Origin: Chloroflexota bacterium | GTDB lineage: Bacteria; Chloroflexota; Dehalococcoidia; Lucifugimonadales; Lucifugimonadaceae | Assembly: GCA_002699165.1 (NCBI GenBank) | Contig: PABO01000015.1 | Coordinates: 29,221-67,331 of the forward strand | Length of the DNA stretch: 38,111 bases | Reading direction: 5' to 3' | In this document: positions 5,410 through 32,881 of the stretch, piece by piece | How the letters are laid out: every line of letters begins with the position of its first letter | How positions within the stretch are numbered: the stretch's first letter is position 1 | The notes under the pieces: model-generated | The model's database searches: none | What the model was told of the DNA's origin: nothing | The model's input: only the letters and a program-made list of their open reading frames with translations | Translations under genes and position numbers: made by a program

Positions 5410-5962
5410 TCAATTTTTTATAATAAGTCTAAGGTTTTCTTCTTTCTCTAAACTAATTATTTCTTCTAAATATTTATAATCATTTTTTATTTCTAGGACA
5501 TTTATATATTTTTTTGTAGGCAAATAATCATATGATTCTTCTAAACACCTAAATTCAAATCTATTTTTTGTTTCTAATATTTTTCTTGTACAAGGCTCCA
5601 TGCTTGATAAACCAACTGAATTACCAAATTTATCAAAATATATTATTGTAAGAGGGAAATAAGTTTTATACATCCAAAATCCTTTTTGTTCTTGTTCTTG
5701 TTCATATTGGAAAATCATTCCGTCTATATTTGGGCTTAGATCTTCTCTGCACATTAGTCCAAATTTATATTCGTTAATATTTTTACCAAGGTATGTTTCT
5801 AGAGGATAATTAAAGTCTTTAGTTTGGATATTTATTGATATAGATTCATAATTAATTAATTTTTCATCACAACCATTGTAAAAATCAATAATTCGATTAT
5901 CTAATTCACAAGAATTTATAAGTGGTATTACTAGTACAATTAAAAATACTTTTTTTTTTCAT
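5410..5962 (-). CDS. DUF192-family lipoprotein; N-terminus out of frame by 1 nt at an A10 homopolymer
   Basis: GLMCREDLSPNIDGMIFQYEQEQEQKGFWMYKTYFPLTIIYFDKFGNSV...PCTRK matches the DUF192 layout. The same frame extends upstream as KKKVFLIVLVIPLINSCELDNRIIDFYNGCDEK... (lipoprotein signal), but ATG at 5962-5960 is one base out of frame because of the 10-T run 5950-5959. Confidence 0.7.
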
Positions 5963-10560: not shown

Positions 10561-11268
10561 ATGCCCATATTTAATAAAGAAGAAATAAAAATCATAGAGT
10601 CTTTTTCAGATATAAATAAAGAAAATTTTAGGACTAATATTTTAAGCATAATTGGTAATTGGAAGATAAGTAATCTTAATAGTTATGATTACTTATTAAT
10701 GAAAGAAGCTTTTAATTGGAGAAGATTAGCAATAAAAATAATTGATTATGTTGAATGTGATAAAAAATTATATTCAAAATTATTAGATTGGATTTTTACT
10801 CCTCATTTATATGCTACTTTTTCTGAAAATGGTTTTAGGGAGCTAATTGGTTATGAAAAGTATAATGCTCACTTGTCTTATTTTTATGGAGTAACAATTG
10901 AAAGATGCCTAATTTCTTATACTGAAGAAGAATTATTTAAAAGACAAATCTCATATGGGAATTTTGTTAGATACACTCCAGAAGATGTATACTCAAAAAT
11001 ATATAATATTTCTTATAATGAATTGATTGAAGAATTTTTATCTAAATATAATCTTAATCCAAATAGTTTAACAGAAATAGAATTTGAAAACTTTACATAT
11101 TGGTGCTTTAAGAAGAGGGTTGAAAATTCTGAACCATCAAAACTTGCTTCAGATACAAAAAAAGGAACTATGTTTTTATATAAATTTTTAGAATCCGAGA
11201 ATAAAAGATTGAACTCAACAGAAAAGATTGAGGATAATAGAAAAAAAAAAGTTGATTTTGCTTTTTGA
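10561..11268 (+). CDS. Conserved-looking hypothetical protein, 235 aa
   Basis: ATG 3 nt after the secA stop, full-length ORF, soluble protein; no family recognised. Confidence 0.75.
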   Translation: MPIFNKEEIKIIESFSDINKENFRTNILSIIGNWKISNLNSYDYLLMKEAFNWRRLAIKIIDYVECDKKLYSKLLDWIFTPHLYATFSENGFRELIGYEKYNAHLSYFYGVTIERCLISYTEEELFKRQISYGNFVRYTPEDVYSKIYNISYNELIEEFLSKYNLNPNSLTEIEFENFTYWCFKKRVENSEPSKLASDTKKGTMFLYKFLESENKRLNSTEKIEDNRKKKVDFAF

Positions 11269-11306
11269 TTAAGTAAAAAAATATTATTAAGTTTGGAGGT
11301 GTTGGT

Positions 11307-13955
11307 ATCCAAAAAAAATTTAAAATTGTAAATCCTAAAGATCTTGCTAAACGTTTTGATTTTAAAGAAAAAGAGTTTTTTTGGAGAAAAATTTGGGATG
11401 AAAATAAGATCTATGAAAGACTTGAAAATCAAAACAGAGATGCTTCATTTGTAATAGATTCGCCTCCACCTACTGTTTCAGGTTCGCTTCATGTAGGACA
11501 TATTTTTTCATATACTCATCAAGATATAATTGCTCGTTTCAAAAGAATGAATAATTTTAATGTTGTATATCCTATGGGATGGGATGACAACGGATTACCC
11601 ACTGAAAGAAGAGTTCAAAATATATTTGGCGTAAGAATAGATAATAATATTCCATACATAGAAAACTTAAATGTAGATAAACAAAAAAAACTAGATGGTA
11701 TTTCAAAAGATGAGCCTCTCATAGTAAATAGAAAAAATTTCATTGAAATGTGTGAACTAATCACTGCAAAAGATGAAGTGGTTTTTAAGGATTTATTTAG
11801 AAAAATGGGTTATTCAATAGACTGGAAAGATGAATATTCAACTATAGATTCTAAATCAAGAATAATTGCACAGTTATCATTTATTGATTTATTCCACAAA
11901 GACTTAATTTATCAGTCCAATGCTCCTACAATGTGGGATATTGATTTTCAAACTGCGGTCGCACAAGCTGAAATTGAAGATAGAGAAATTCAAGGAGCAT
12001 ACCATGATATTAAATTTGGCGTAAAAGGCTCTAATGAAAATATTATAATATCAACTACTAGACCTGAACTATTAGCATCGTGTGTAGGAATTACAGCTCA
12101 TCCGGATGATAAAAGATATAAACATTTATTTGGGAAAACAGCTATTTCTCCTGTATTTTTTTCACCAATACGAGTATTCCCAAGTGAATTAGTTGATATG
12201 GAAAAAGGAACAGGTATATTGATGGTTTGTACATTTGGAGATCAAACAGATGTTTTATGGTGGAGAGAAAATTCTCTTCCTCTAAGGCAACTATTCAATT
12301 TAGATGGAATTGTTGCAAATATTAATTTTGAAAAAAGTGATAAAGATGTAATTTGGGAGAGTGAAAACCCAGAATTAGCTAATGAAAATATAAAACATAT
12401 TAAGGGAAAAACCCTAAGTCAAACTAAAAATATCTTAATTGAATTGCTGAAAGATCCTAAAAATTCACTTGATCAAAAACCAGCTTTAGTAAAAGAGCCA
12501 GAGAAAATAAATCATCCTGTTAGATTTTATGAAAAAGGAGAATCTCCTATTGAATATATTTCTTCAAGGCAATGGTTTGTAAAAATAACAGATAAAAAAG
12601 AAAAATTATTAGATGCGGGTCGGAAAATAAAATGGCATCCAGATTATATGTCTAAGAGGTATGAAAATTGGACAGAGAATCTATCTATTGATTGGTGCAT
12701 AAGTAGGCAAAGGTTTTTTGGTGTTCCAATTCCTGTATGGTACAAACTAGATTCTAATGGGAATCCAAATTATAAAGAAGTAATAATTCCAAATAAAGAC
12801 AGTTTACCAATCGATCCGGAGATAGATTGCCCTGAAGGTTATTCCGATGAGGAAAGAGGTGCTCCTAATGGATTTATAGGAGAAAAAGATGTATTTGATA
12901 CTTGGTTTACATCTTCCTTAACACCACAAATAGTTGCTAAATGGGGGATTGAAAAATATGATGAGATGGAATCTATATTCCCAATGGATATTAGGCCTCA
13001 AAGTCATGAAATAATTAGAACATGGGCATTTTATACAATTGTAAAATCTGTGCTTCATAATAACTCAATTCCTTGGAAGAATGTAATAATATCTGGTTGG
13101 ATTTTAGATCCTGATAGAAAAAAGATGAGTAAATCAAAAGGAAATGTAATCACCCCAATAGAAACTATTGATGAGTATGGATCTGATGCAGTAAGATACT
13201 GGGCAGCTTCAGCAAGACTGGGTACGGATACGACTTATGATGAAAATGTTTTTATTATTGGAAATAAACTTGTAACAAAATTATATAATGCAGCAAAGTT
13301 TGTTTTATCTCATGATTCATACTCAACGAGTAAATTAATTGAATTAGACTCTTCATTTATGGACGAATTACTTAATTTAGTTGAAAATGTAACCCATTAT
13401 TATAATTCTTATCAATTTGCGCAAGGGTTACAAATCACTGAAGAGTTTTTTTGGAATACCTTTACCGATAATTATCTTGAACTTGTAAAAAAAAGAGTCT
13501 TTAATTCAGAAGGTGATGATAAAGCTTCAGCCGTAACATCATTGAGAATGGGATTATCAGTAATTCTTAGACTTTTAGCACCAGTTCTGCCCACTATAAC
13601 GGATGAAATATGGTCATGGTGCTTTTCTGACGAAACAAAAACATTATCTATCCACCAATCAAAATGGCCAAATAAAGAAGAGTTTAAGGAATTAAATAAA
13701 TCAAAATATAAGAATTCATTAGAAGTTGCAATTAAAGCGATTAGATCAGTTAGACAATCTAAGACTTCGGAAGGAATAGGCTTAGGTAAACCTGTAGAAA
13801 AAATGAAAATTACAACTAATCAAGAAAACCTTGAAATTATTGATTTTATTTTTGAAGATTTTTCTAATGCTTCAAATTGCTTTAATTTTGATAAAGAAAA
13901 AATAGATGATGAAAATATAAAAGTAGAAATAATTTCTAAGATCGAAGATTTATAA
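11307..13955 (+). CDS. valS: Valyl-tRNA synthetase, actinobacterial/archaeal-like short type; probable non-canonical start
   Basis: In-frame upstream extension IQKKFKIVNPKDLAKRFDFKEKEFFWRKIWDENKIYERLENQNRDASFVIDSPPPTVSGSLHVGHIFSYTHQDIIARFKRM contains the HIGH-type motif (HVGH). Downstream GWDDNGLPTERRVQ, KMSKSKGN. No ATG/GTG/TTG in frame between stop 11274 and ATG 11547. Confidence 0.93.
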   Translation: MQKKFKIVNPKDLAKRFDFKEKEFFWRKIWDENKIYERLENQNRDASFVIDSPPPTVSGSLHVGHIFSYTHQDIIARFKRMNNFNVVYPMGWDDNGLPTERRVQNIFGVRIDNNIPYIENLNVDKQKKLDGISKDEPLIVNRKNFIEMCELITAKDEVVFKDLFRKMGYSIDWKDEYSTIDSKSRIIAQLSFIDLFHKDLIYQSNAPTMWDIDFQTAVAQAEIEDREIQGAYHDIKFGVKGSNENIIISTTRPELLASCVGITAHPDDKRYKHLFGKTAISPVFFSPIRVFPSELVDMEKGTGILMVCTFGDQTDVLWWRENSLPLRQLFNLDGIVANINFEKSDKDVIWESENPELANENIKHIKGKTLSQTKNILIELLKDPKNSLDQKPALVKEPEKINHPVRFYEKGESPIEYISSRQWFVKITDKKEKLLDAGRKIKWHPDYMSKRYENWTENLSIDWCISRQRFFGVPIPVWYKLDSNGNPNYKEVIIPNKDSLPIDPEIDCPEGYSDEERGAPNGFIGEKDVFDTWFTSSLTPQIVAKWGIEKYDEMESIFPMDIRPQSHEIIRTWAFYTIVKSVLHNNSIPWKNVIISGWILDPDRKKMSKSKGNVITPIETIDEYGSDAVRYWAASARLGTDTTYDENVFIIGNKLVTKLYNAAKFVLSHDSYSTSKLIELDSSFMDELLNLVENVTHYYNSYQFAQGLQITEEFFWNTFTDNYLELVKKRVFNSEGDDKASAVTSLRMGLSVILRLLAPVLPTITDEIWSWCFSDETKTLSIHQSKWPNKEEFKELNKSKYKNSLEVAIKAIRSVRQSKTSEGIGLGKPVEKMKITTNQENLEIIDFIFEDFSNASNCFNFDKEKIDDENIKVEIISKIEDL

Positions 13956-22191: not shown

Positions 22192-23652
22192 CTAATTCTT
22201 AATATAAACATAAGATAATATTAACGCTGAAAAAGACGCTAATAATGAAAATATAAAAGCTCCTAACATTATTTCATTGAAAACTTCTAACCCAGCTTGA
22301 TTGATGTTGTCATTTATTTTGTTTTGTACATTTGGATCCAAAGAAAAAACTTGAATACCAGTGACTAATTCAGAGAATCTAGCGGTTCCTATTGTTGTCA
22401 TTAATGAGAGCCCAAAAATCATACCAATCATTCTAGAAAGTGAGATCATAGATGATGTTATACCTCTAATATTTTCACCAATATTATGAAGTCCAGTGTT
22501 GTGAATGGGCACTATAAAAAGTCCAAAACCAATACCAATTATAAAAAATATAATATTAATTTGATCAGTCGGGATATCTAAATTTTTTGAATATAGAAAT
22601 GTTCCCATAGAAATAAATATTGATCCTAAAATCATGGTAAGAGAAGTGCTTATTTTTGAAAAAAATATTCCGAAAAGAGATCCTACTCCAATAAATGCAG
22701 TTACTTTGAGTAAAGATAATCCTATAGAAATATTATCTAACTGATATATAGTTGATCCAGATAGAGGAATTACCACCATAACTATTATTAGACTGCATCC
22801 AATAAAAAAGTGAGTTATAAATGTAAATAAAAAAGTTCTTGAAACTATGAGCTGGCTTGGAATTAGATCTTGGCCATAAAATCTTATTTTTATTACTCCG
22901 ATTGAAATTATTAAGGAAAGAATAATTATAATAACTATTTGTATAAAACCTAAATTATTGAACTCAGATACTAATAGTGTGATCAAAATTAATACTAATG
23001 AAATTAATACAGTATCTACTAACTTTATCTTTACTATATTTTTTTTTGATTTTGGCATAGTAAGAATTAGGATAATAACAAAAAAAGATAAAGGTAAATT
23101 AAGGAAAAATGCTGCAGGCCAATCCCATATCTCTAGGATTAAGCTACCCCACAAAGGGCCTATAACTCCACCAGCTTCAGCTGAAGCTCCAATAAGTCCA
23201 AATCCGTATATCCAATATTTCTTTTCTAGTATTATTGATACTGATGCTATAGCTATTGGAATAATAGCTCCTCCTCCCATAGCCTGTAGGAATCTAAAAA
23301 AAATCAACCAATTTAATTTAGATAAGAAAAAAAGTTTATCAGGTATGCTTGAGGTTATTCCTACTAGTAATGAACCTATAGAAAAAACTAATAATGAAAA
23401 TATTAAAGAATTTCTAAAACCATACTTATCACATAACTTTCCTGCTAATGGCATAACTATTGTAAACCCCAATAAATAGGAAGTGATTGTCCAAGAAATT
23501 TTATTTAATTCCCCTATAGAAATACTTAGGTCCATTACCATACTTGGTAACAAAGTAACTATAACAGTTTGATCATCTGCAGCTATGAATACAGCAAGGC
23601 AAAGTATAAAAATATAAAATAATCGTTTATTTGATTTTAAGGTTGCTGCCAT
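22192..23652 (-). CDS. MFS efflux transporter, DHA2/EmrB-QacA type, P55-like
   Basis: 486 aa, 14-TM-like pattern; FIAADDQTVIVTLLPSMVMDL, YLLGFTIVMPLAGKLCDKYG. Overlaps the LppX/LprAFG lipoprotein gene by 16 nt. Confidence 0.88.
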   Translation of the reverse strand: MAATLKSNKRLFYIFILCLAVFIAADDQTVIVTLLPSMVMDLSISIGELNKISWTITSYLLGFTIVMPLAGKLCDKYGFRNSLIFSLLVFSIGSLLVGITSSIPDKLFFLSKLNWLIFFRFLQAMGGGAIIPIAIASVSIILEKKYWIYGFGLIGASAEAGGVIGPLWGSLILEIWDWPAAFFLNLPLSFFVIILILTMPKSKKNIVKIKLVDTVLISLVLILITLLVSEFNNLGFIQIVIIIILSLIISIGVIKIRFYGQDLIPSQLIVSRTFLFTFITHFFIGCSLIIVMVVIPLSGSTIYQLDNISIGLSLLKVTAFIGVGSLFGIFFSKISTSLTMILGSIFISMGTFLYSKNLDIPTDQINIIFFIIGIGFGLFIVPIHNTGLHNIGENIRGITSSMISLSRMIGMIFGLSLMTTIGTARFSELVTGIQVFSLDPNVQNKINDNINQAGLEVFNEIMLGAFIFSLLASFSALILSYVYIKN

Positions 23653-24308
23653 GATATTTTTTCATTCCATTTTTCAAAATTTATCTCTCTAATTGTTTCA
23701 TAATTATCCTCAGGTTGAACCTTACCATAAATGTATATTTTTTTTACAGACCCATCATCTTTAATAATCAAAGATAAATTAATTTTTTCATTTGGAATGA
23801 TTATGTCTCCAACTAAAGACTTAAGATTATTAGAATTTATTTTTGCGCTTATTTCGTATAAACCTTTATTTACAGAACTAATTGATTCATCTTCGATTTC
23901 AGTAAAAATATCACTGATAATATTTATTGGATTTATGTTCTTAAATGGGTTGTCTTCCTCTGGAGTTTTTATCCATTCAAAATTAATAGGATTTGTAATC
24001 CAATAATTATTTTCTAAAGATAAGTATGAAAGTTTTATTAAGAAATTATTAGAAATTATTTCAGCTTTGATCTGTAATTTATCGGGCTTTTCAATATCTC
24101 CTTCTGCTTTTGAAATTTTATATCCTCCAGGTAAGGAAGTGAAACCATTTTTATGATTTAGAATAAAGCTAAATGATTGTGAGTTTGAGATTTTTTGATT
24201 TGATAGATCTAATAATTCTTGAACTGACAAATAATTTATTTTTTCTTCATTATTAGAACAAGAAAAAAATACTAAAAAAATGATTGCTACAATAAAATTT
24301 TTATTTAT
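23637..24308 (-). CDS. LppX/LprAFG (LprG-like) lipoprotein; probable non-canonical ATA start
   Basis: Called ORF begins at TTG 24230, but in-frame upstream sequence reads (ATA)NKNFIVAIIFLVFFSCSNNEEKINYLSVQELLDLSN..., a lipoprotein signal with lipobox FFSC. AAAGGA lies 7 nt upstream of the ATA. Confidence 0.8.
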   Translation of the reverse strand: MNKNFIVAIIFLVFFSCSNNEEKINYLSVQELLDLSNQKISNSQSFSFILNHKNGFTSLPGGYKISKAEGDIEKPDKLQIKAEIISNNFLIKLSYLSLENNYWITNPINFEWIKTPEEDNPFKNINPINIISDIFTEIEDESISSVNKGLYEISAKINSNNLKSLVGDIIIPNEKINLSLIIKDDGSVKKIYIYGKVQPEDNYETIREINFEKWNEKISWQQP

Positions 24309-24397
24309 GCTATTTTCCTTTGATTCGTTATTACCATTCTATAAGAAAAGATTAAAGTTTCTAAAAAAGTATTTATATAGTATATTTAAGTTGTGTA

Positions 24398-24479
24398 TTA
24401 CAGGGGAGCTTATAATGCTGAGAGGGTTATTACAACCGACCCATTAAACCTGAACTAGATAATTCTAGCGGAGGGAAAA
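24398..24479 (+). promoter_or_regulatory. TPP (thiamine pyrophosphate) riboswitch
   Basis: ACAGGGGAGCTTATAATGCTGAGAGGGTTATTACAACCGACCCATTAAACCTGAACTAGATAATTCTAGCGGAGGGAA retains THI-box blocks GGGGAGC, GCTGAGAGG, GACCC..AACCTGAACTAGATAATTCTAGCG.AGGGAA. Confidence 0.95.
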
Positions 24480-25235
24480 ATTAATAGTATCGTTTTAGAA
24501 AATTTAACTTTTGGTTTTCAAAACCAATCTTCCATTATAGATAATTTGTCATATACTTTTCCTTCAAATAAAACTGTATCTATTATTGGGCATAGTGGTT
24601 GCGGGAAGAGTACATTATTGCAACTGATTTCGGGAGTTTTAGAACCATCTAAAGGTAAAGTATTCTTGCAAGATAAAGATAAAAGGTTAGGTGAAATTGC
24701 TTATATGCAACAAAATGACCTATTATTACCCTGGTTGAATGTTCAAGAAAATGTTCAACTTCCATTAAAAATAAAAAATAAAAAAAATGCTGAGACATAT
24801 GATGATATGTTACAAAAAGCTAAAGTTTTAGGAATTGAAAATTATTTAAACTTTTACCCTAAGGAACTTTCGGGCGGATTAAGGCAAAGAGTAGCTTTTC
24901 TTAGAACTATATTACAAGACTCTAATTTCATATTATTAGATGAACCTTTTGCATCTCTTGATGCTATTAAGAGAATTGAAATTTATAGTTGGATAGAAAA
25001 CTTAAAAGACTATATTAATAAATCTATTATTTTAGTGACTCATGATATTGAGGAAGCTTTATTCCTCTCAGATCAAATTATAGTTATGGATTCGGGGTTT
25101 GATAATTTTAAGTTTAAAATGGATATTCTTATGCCTCATCCTAGAAAAACTAGTGTTATTGTTGAAAAAAAATTTATTGAACAAAAAACATTGTTAACAA
25201 AGAAATTAGATGAGGTGAAAAAAAATGATATCTAA
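24480..25235 (+). CDS. ABC transporter ATP-binding protein, ThiZ-like (thiamine-precursor uptake)
   Basis: Walker A GHSGCGKST, signature LSGGLRQRVAFLRTI, Walker B ILLDEPFASLD. In-frame upstream extension INSIVLENLTFGFQNQSSIIDNL supplies the usual ABC N-terminus; ORF track starts at TTG 24546. Confidence 0.93.
   Translation: MNSIVLENLTFGFQNQSSIIDNLSYTFPSNKTVSIIGHSGCGKSTLLQLISGVLEPSKGKVFLQDKDKRLGEIAYMQQNDLLLPWLNVQENVQLPLKIKNKKNAETYDDMLQKAKVLGIENYLNFYPKELSGGLRQRVAFLRTILQDSNFILLDEPFASLDAIKRIEIYSWIENLKDYINKSIILVTHDIEEALFLSDQIIVMDSGFDNFKFKMDILMPHPRKTSVIVEKKFIEQKTLLTKKLDEVKKNDI

Positions 25236-32805: not shown

Positions 32806-32881
<76 letters not shown>

Follow-up and report, generated by a model that had tools for sequence, protein, structure and literature searches.

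Apparent AUC and AUU starts of valS, and about a dozen candidate AUU/AUC/AUA-started genes, in a genus of SAR202 Chloroflexota

How is a valyl-tRNA synthetase (ValRS) gene translated when its reading frame holds no ATG, GTG or TTG ahead of the catalytic motif? Gene finders normally accept only these three codons, and the question is raised by valS in the stretch of DNA analysed here (the window, 38,111 nt). The source of the window is a SAR202 (Chloroflexota) MAG, labeled G000, that comprises 1.38 Mb in 37 contigs and is 88% complete with 6.7% contamination. A sequence-only reading of the window had claimed that the first canonical codon of valS, ATG 11547, follows the HIGH-type motif, and had preferred as start an ATC at 11307, placed 6 nt behind a GGAGGT at 11295-11300. 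On re-examination, the frame is indeed open from 11277 without an earlier ATG, GTG or TTG (translation of 11274-11600: KNIIKFGGVGIQKKFKIVNPKDLAKRFDF...SGSLHVGH...), and the Shine-Dalgarno sequence is present at that spacing (Table 1).

The 882-aa product read from ATC is a full-length match to ValRS models, with 1045 bits for NF000540 (cut-off 900), 634.8 bits for TIGR00422 (cut-off 612.1) and 1014.5 bits for NF009687, of which profile position 5 falls on residue 12. The HIGH motif occupies residues 58-65, and the KMSKS motif was read in the translation as KKMSKSKG. A start at ATG 11547, which lies 3' of SGSLHVGH, is too late for an active synthetase. Other matches to ValS within G000 are weak (25-37% identity) and fall in long frames of IleRS/LeuRS size; because valS thus appears to be single-copy, its HIGH-containing N-terminus must be made. 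The gene directly 5' of valS (10561-11268, +) encodes 235 aa and has no match in Pfam or NCBIfam; its orthologue in G005 shows 55% identity.

Table 1. Positions of the valS features and of the second ATT-started gene in the window
Feature	Position	Strand	Basis or remark
In-frame stop TAA, upstream bound of the valS open frame	11274..11276	+	translation
Shine-Dalgarno GGAGGT	11295..11300	+	6 nt before ATC; the four ATT species have GGAGG/GAGGT in the corresponding position
Proposed valS start codon ATC	11307..11309	+	homologous codon is ATT in G008, G007, G003 and G005
Catalytic HIGH-type motif SGSLHVGH	11478..11501	+	upstream of the first canonical start
First in-frame ATG of valS	11547..11549	+	90 codons into the open frame
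valS coding sequence, 882 codons from the proposed ATC	11307..13955	+	matches to NF000540, NF009687, PF00133 and PF08264
ABC transporter ATP-binding protein, 251 aa, apparent ATT start	24480..25235	+	PF00005, 100.7 bits
TPP riboswitch aptamer	24392..24493	+	RF00059, 60.3 bits (gathering score 54.3)

The comparison set consisted of nine species of the genus, eight of which gave a valS match. An ATG at the codon homologous to ATC 11307, which would have spoken against the preferred start, is present in none of the relatives; instead, the codon is ATT in G008, G007, G003 and G005. In all five species the ATC or ATT follows the final G of GGAGG/GAGG at 6-7 nt, and the codon just before the ATC or ATT is different in each (GGT, CAA, CTA, GAG and GAA). 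Recurrence of the codon as ATT in four other species, at this distance past a Shine-Dalgarno sequence, makes the putative start ATC at 11307 more than a chance occurrence. Both valS-bearing contigs of G007 (L006 and L034; C15 and C21) carry the ATT; they are nearly identical and probably reflect a mixture of strains in that MAG.

The immediate surroundings of the codon vary among the species. In G008 (ATTTCTGAAAATTTT) and G007 (ATTTCTGAAAAATTT), five codons separate an in-frame stop from the ATT, none of them is ATG, GTG or TTG, and there is no A-run. An in-frame ATG exists in G003, nine codons ahead of ATT and 5' of the Shine-Dalgarno sequence. The three remaining species carry an upstream ATG: two codons upstream in G002 and G006 (ATG AAA ATT AAT; a weak GAGAGT directly adjoins the ATG) and three codons upstream in G004, so that ATT was already an internal codon in these species. 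With an apparent AUC/AUU start in five of the eight species with a valS match, the ATG-less valS start is conserved in part of the genus, neither universal nor the error of one assembly.

Two artefactual or indirect routes to a valS product were weighed against initiation at this codon. The sequence-only reading had itself named a 1-nt indel in the A8 run at 11311-11318, which would join TTG 11302 or GTG 11299 to the frame. As an artefact, this would be a slip of assembly or in the homopolymer that masks the start. Both codons and the run are where it had placed them, with the codons one frame away and the run in between, and another gene of the window (5413-5958, -) looks like a case of an ATG displaced by an A-run. 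However, TTG and GTG are at most 2 nt behind GGAGG, several unrelated genes show the pattern as well, and the relatives without the A-run carry ATT at the same codon and have no canonical start. Because G008 and G007 combine an upstream stop with the lack of an A-run, neither a sequencing indel, nor an A-run frameshift, nor an upstream start can explain the clade; the indel alternative is refuted there, and for the window we regard it as very improbable. Less probable still is translation that begins at an out-of-frame ATG or TTG at -14, overlapping the Shine-Dalgarno sequence, and then shifts into the valS frame. Such a codon exists as TTG in G000 and G007 and as ATG in G003 and G005, but it precedes the Shine-Dalgarno sequence instead of following it, G008 has CTA there, and the frame meets a stop at once or within a few codons in G007 and G005 (TTGGAGGTACTCTAA, ATGGAGGTTAGAAATTAA). 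No slippery sequence is shared, and the frameshift route was rejected as not common to all species.

Beyond the view that a single window allows, valS turned out to be one of many genes of the lineage with apparent AUH starts (AUU, AUC or AUA). A second one in the window encodes the ATP-binding protein of an ABC transporter: its start reads GCGGAGGGAAAA-ATT here versus GCGGAGGGAAGA-ATG at the same place in G005, and the open frame reaches its first canonical codon after 29 codons. The TPP aptamer overlaps the Shine-Dalgarno sequence and the start of this gene. Two lipoprotein-like ORFs of the window were also inspected. The one at 5413-5958 (-) has no in-frame canonical start before its signal sequence, and an ATG lies one frame off, immediately ahead of about ten consecutive A; an A-run indel, in the assembly or real, is the likelier cause of this start loss. 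In the one at 23640-24338 (-), the first canonical codon comes after the signal sequence, canonical codons are present in G005, and an ATA at a suitable distance from AAAGGA makes it a further AUH candidate.

For a genome-wide view, 1.36 Mb of G000 was compared with 1.17 Mb of G005, yielding 1,007 pairs of orthologues with a length of 90 aa or more, and pairs were listed when no canonical start precedes the conserved N-terminus. Once its artefacts (rRNA, tRNA, antisense frames and overlapping genes) are discounted, the list still contains a set of real genes. Apart from valS, infC and the ABC transporter gene, these are named after inspection of their sequences rather than by family searches. 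The infC gene starts with ATA after AGGAG in all nine species (e.g. AGGAGTAAAAA ATA GCT AAG). Four genes of the list were read across the genus, namely those of a multihaem cytochrome, an SMP-30-like protein, a MerR/HspR regulator and an N-acyl-D-amino-acid deacylase. The cytochrome gene has ATA, ATT or ATC shortly after GGAG/GAGG in 9/9 species, and the SMP-30-like gene has ATT, ATC or ATA in all seven species that possess it, with the ATT slightly further upstream in G002 and G006. The regulator likewise shows ATT, ATC or ATA in every one of the nine; a TAG stop directly precedes the ATT in G004 and G001, so ATT is the first available codon there. For the deacylase, two species have ATC, three ATA and a single one ATT, and G002 and G006 carry ATG at this position. 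Further candidates, limited to two genomes, are nadC, a DUF3105-like gene, rsfS and a PhoR-like kinase gene, with recF, purE (ATA versus TTG), a MaoC-like gene and dnaA (CTG) as weaker ones. Altogether, about a dozen genes of the genus, valS and infC among them, appear to have AUU, AUC or AUA starts.

Statistical support was sought at the level of whole genomes. A strict Shine-Dalgarno sequence is present in both genomes for 8 of the 11 AUH genes with a start assigned in both, versus 137 of 594 ATG/ATG genes (Fisher p = 8e-4), an enrichment that is partly circular because some start assignments were guided by the Shine-Dalgarno sequence. The 16 aligned columns of the AUH genes with a Shine-Dalgarno sequence in both species include AUH/AUH for six genes, AAH for two and TTH for one. 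Pairwise columns did not single out AUH, either with a permissive Shine-Dalgarno definition (11 ATH versus 6.3 expected) or with a strict one (five ATH genes versus five AAW genes), and in codon-blind genome-wide scans AUH did not stand out from the remaining codons. A start-codon model fitted by EM to 1,954 gene ends was uninformative, with abundant AAA and TTT absorbing weight where no canonical start exists. Because neighbouring codons and shadow frames make column scans noisy, the argument rests on the loci read in several species.

The initiation machinery looks ordinary. The 16S 3' end carries a normal anti-Shine-Dalgarno (reverse complement AAAGGAGGTGATCC), and the IF3 protein sequence reads as that of an ordinary IF3. 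A pattern search found the canonical initiator anticodon arm GGGCTCATAACCC, with anticodon CAU, in G001, G002, G004, G005 and G007. ARAGORN reports only two CAU tRNAs each in G000 and G005, which had raised the suspicion of a missing or altered initiator tRNA; the canonical arm in these five members of the genus, in G005 on a contig outside the fetched set, speaks against this. Among the ARAGORN tRNAs from the fetched sequence of the two genomes, no further initiator type with another anticodon was seen. The absence of the arm from the G000 assembly is most simply put down to incompleteness. Within the window, ARAGORN calls a tRNA-Met(CAT) at 32806-32881 (+), which we take to resemble tRNA-Ile2 (lysidine-modified CAU, reading AUA) more than an initiator.

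We infer initiation at AUC/AUU itself from the lack of canonical starts, the conservation of the AUH codon with its Shine-Dalgarno sequence, the ATG/AUH swaps between species, and the ordinary initiator arm and anti-Shine-Dalgarno. In the reading that we favor, with a probability of roughly 0.92, valS would be translated from AUC here and from AUU in the four other species by ordinary fMet-tRNA(CAU), aided by the Shine-Dalgarno sequence and probably damped by IF3. The strong GGAGG at normal spacing would position the 30S subunit, and the initiator tRNA would pair with the first two bases, the mismatch at the third base being tolerated, so that fMet would presumably be the first residue of ValS. 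As IF3 discriminates against such codons, initiation is expected to be weaker than at AUG and may depend on IF3.

AUU, AUC and AUA starts are a kind already known from infC and ccpN. In E. coli, pcnB has an AUU start and encodes a housekeeping enzyme; valS shares both traits with it where it would start at AUU, but is another gene in another lineage. valS shows several features of an infC-type start, namely no canonical start before the conserved N-terminus, a difference from AUG in the third base only, a strong Shine-Dalgarno sequence at normal spacing, and conservation among related species. The third-base mismatch, strong Shine-Dalgarno and cross-species conservation are those of infC itself, whose start is AUU/AUA, with autoregulation by IF3 in E. 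coli and AUA in S. aureus (PMC13009471), whereas valS encodes an aminoacyl-tRNA synthetase and would use AUC/AUU. In S. aureus, the AUA/AUU starts of infC, ccpN, cvfC1 and citZ have been mapped by Ribo-Ret, and such non-canonical sites characteristically carry extended Shine-Dalgarno motifs (PMC13009471). Three of these genes in S. aureus/B. subtilis, ccpN (AUA), cvfC1 (AUU) and citZ (AUA), are likewise ordinary genes with conserved non-canonical starts and extended Shine-Dalgarno motifs (PMC13009471). Against the four mapped sites of S. aureus (PMC13009471) stand about a dozen sequence-based candidates in a Chloroflexota genome of 1.4 Mb. A literature search returned nothing on SAR202 start codons or on bacterial valS genes started with AUU. 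As far as our searches show, a cross-species conserved valS of the AUH type is new, and so is a genus in which the number of such genes reaches about a dozen; the comparison of genomes covered this one genus.

If initiation at AUC/AUU is real, it may be regulatory or neutral, and for valS we judge the two about even. A regulatory role, in which the level of IF3, itself encoded by an AUA-started infC, would set the output of valS, is a tentative proposal. It agrees with the ATA of infC in every species, with the starts of the cytochrome, SMP-30-like and MerR genes, which drift among ATA, ATT and ATC and never to ATG, and with S. aureus reporters, in which such starts of ccpN, cvfC1 and citZ yield about 10% of the output of AUG in poor medium, and that of ccpN up to 30% in rich medium (PMC13009471). 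Against it, valS regained or kept an ATG in G002, G004 and G006, and the affected genes have no evident common pathway. Equally open to belief or doubt is a neutral origin, in which a streamlined, AT-rich lineage would tolerate weak starts given a strong Shine-Dalgarno sequence, and ATG and AUH would drift into one another. The interchange of ATG and AUH between species in the deacylase and ABC ATPase genes and the number of unrelated genes affected fit such drift, but several genes do not return to ATG in any species, which points to some constraint.

For the genus, we consider it rather likely that a small but regular share of genes, about 1% (an estimate from roughly 11 of the 1,007 pairs), starts at AUU, AUC or AUA. 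This share would include valS and infC, probably also nadC and rsfS, and would reflect either relaxed start selection or IF3-linked control of housekeeping genes. Standard gene finders would then truncate the essential ValS at the cost of its catalytic motif and misplace the starts of perhaps 1% of genes. The conserved AUH starts, together with the swaps between ATG and AUH in sister species, would offer a natural experiment on Shine-Dalgarno strength versus initiation fidelity versus control by IF3.
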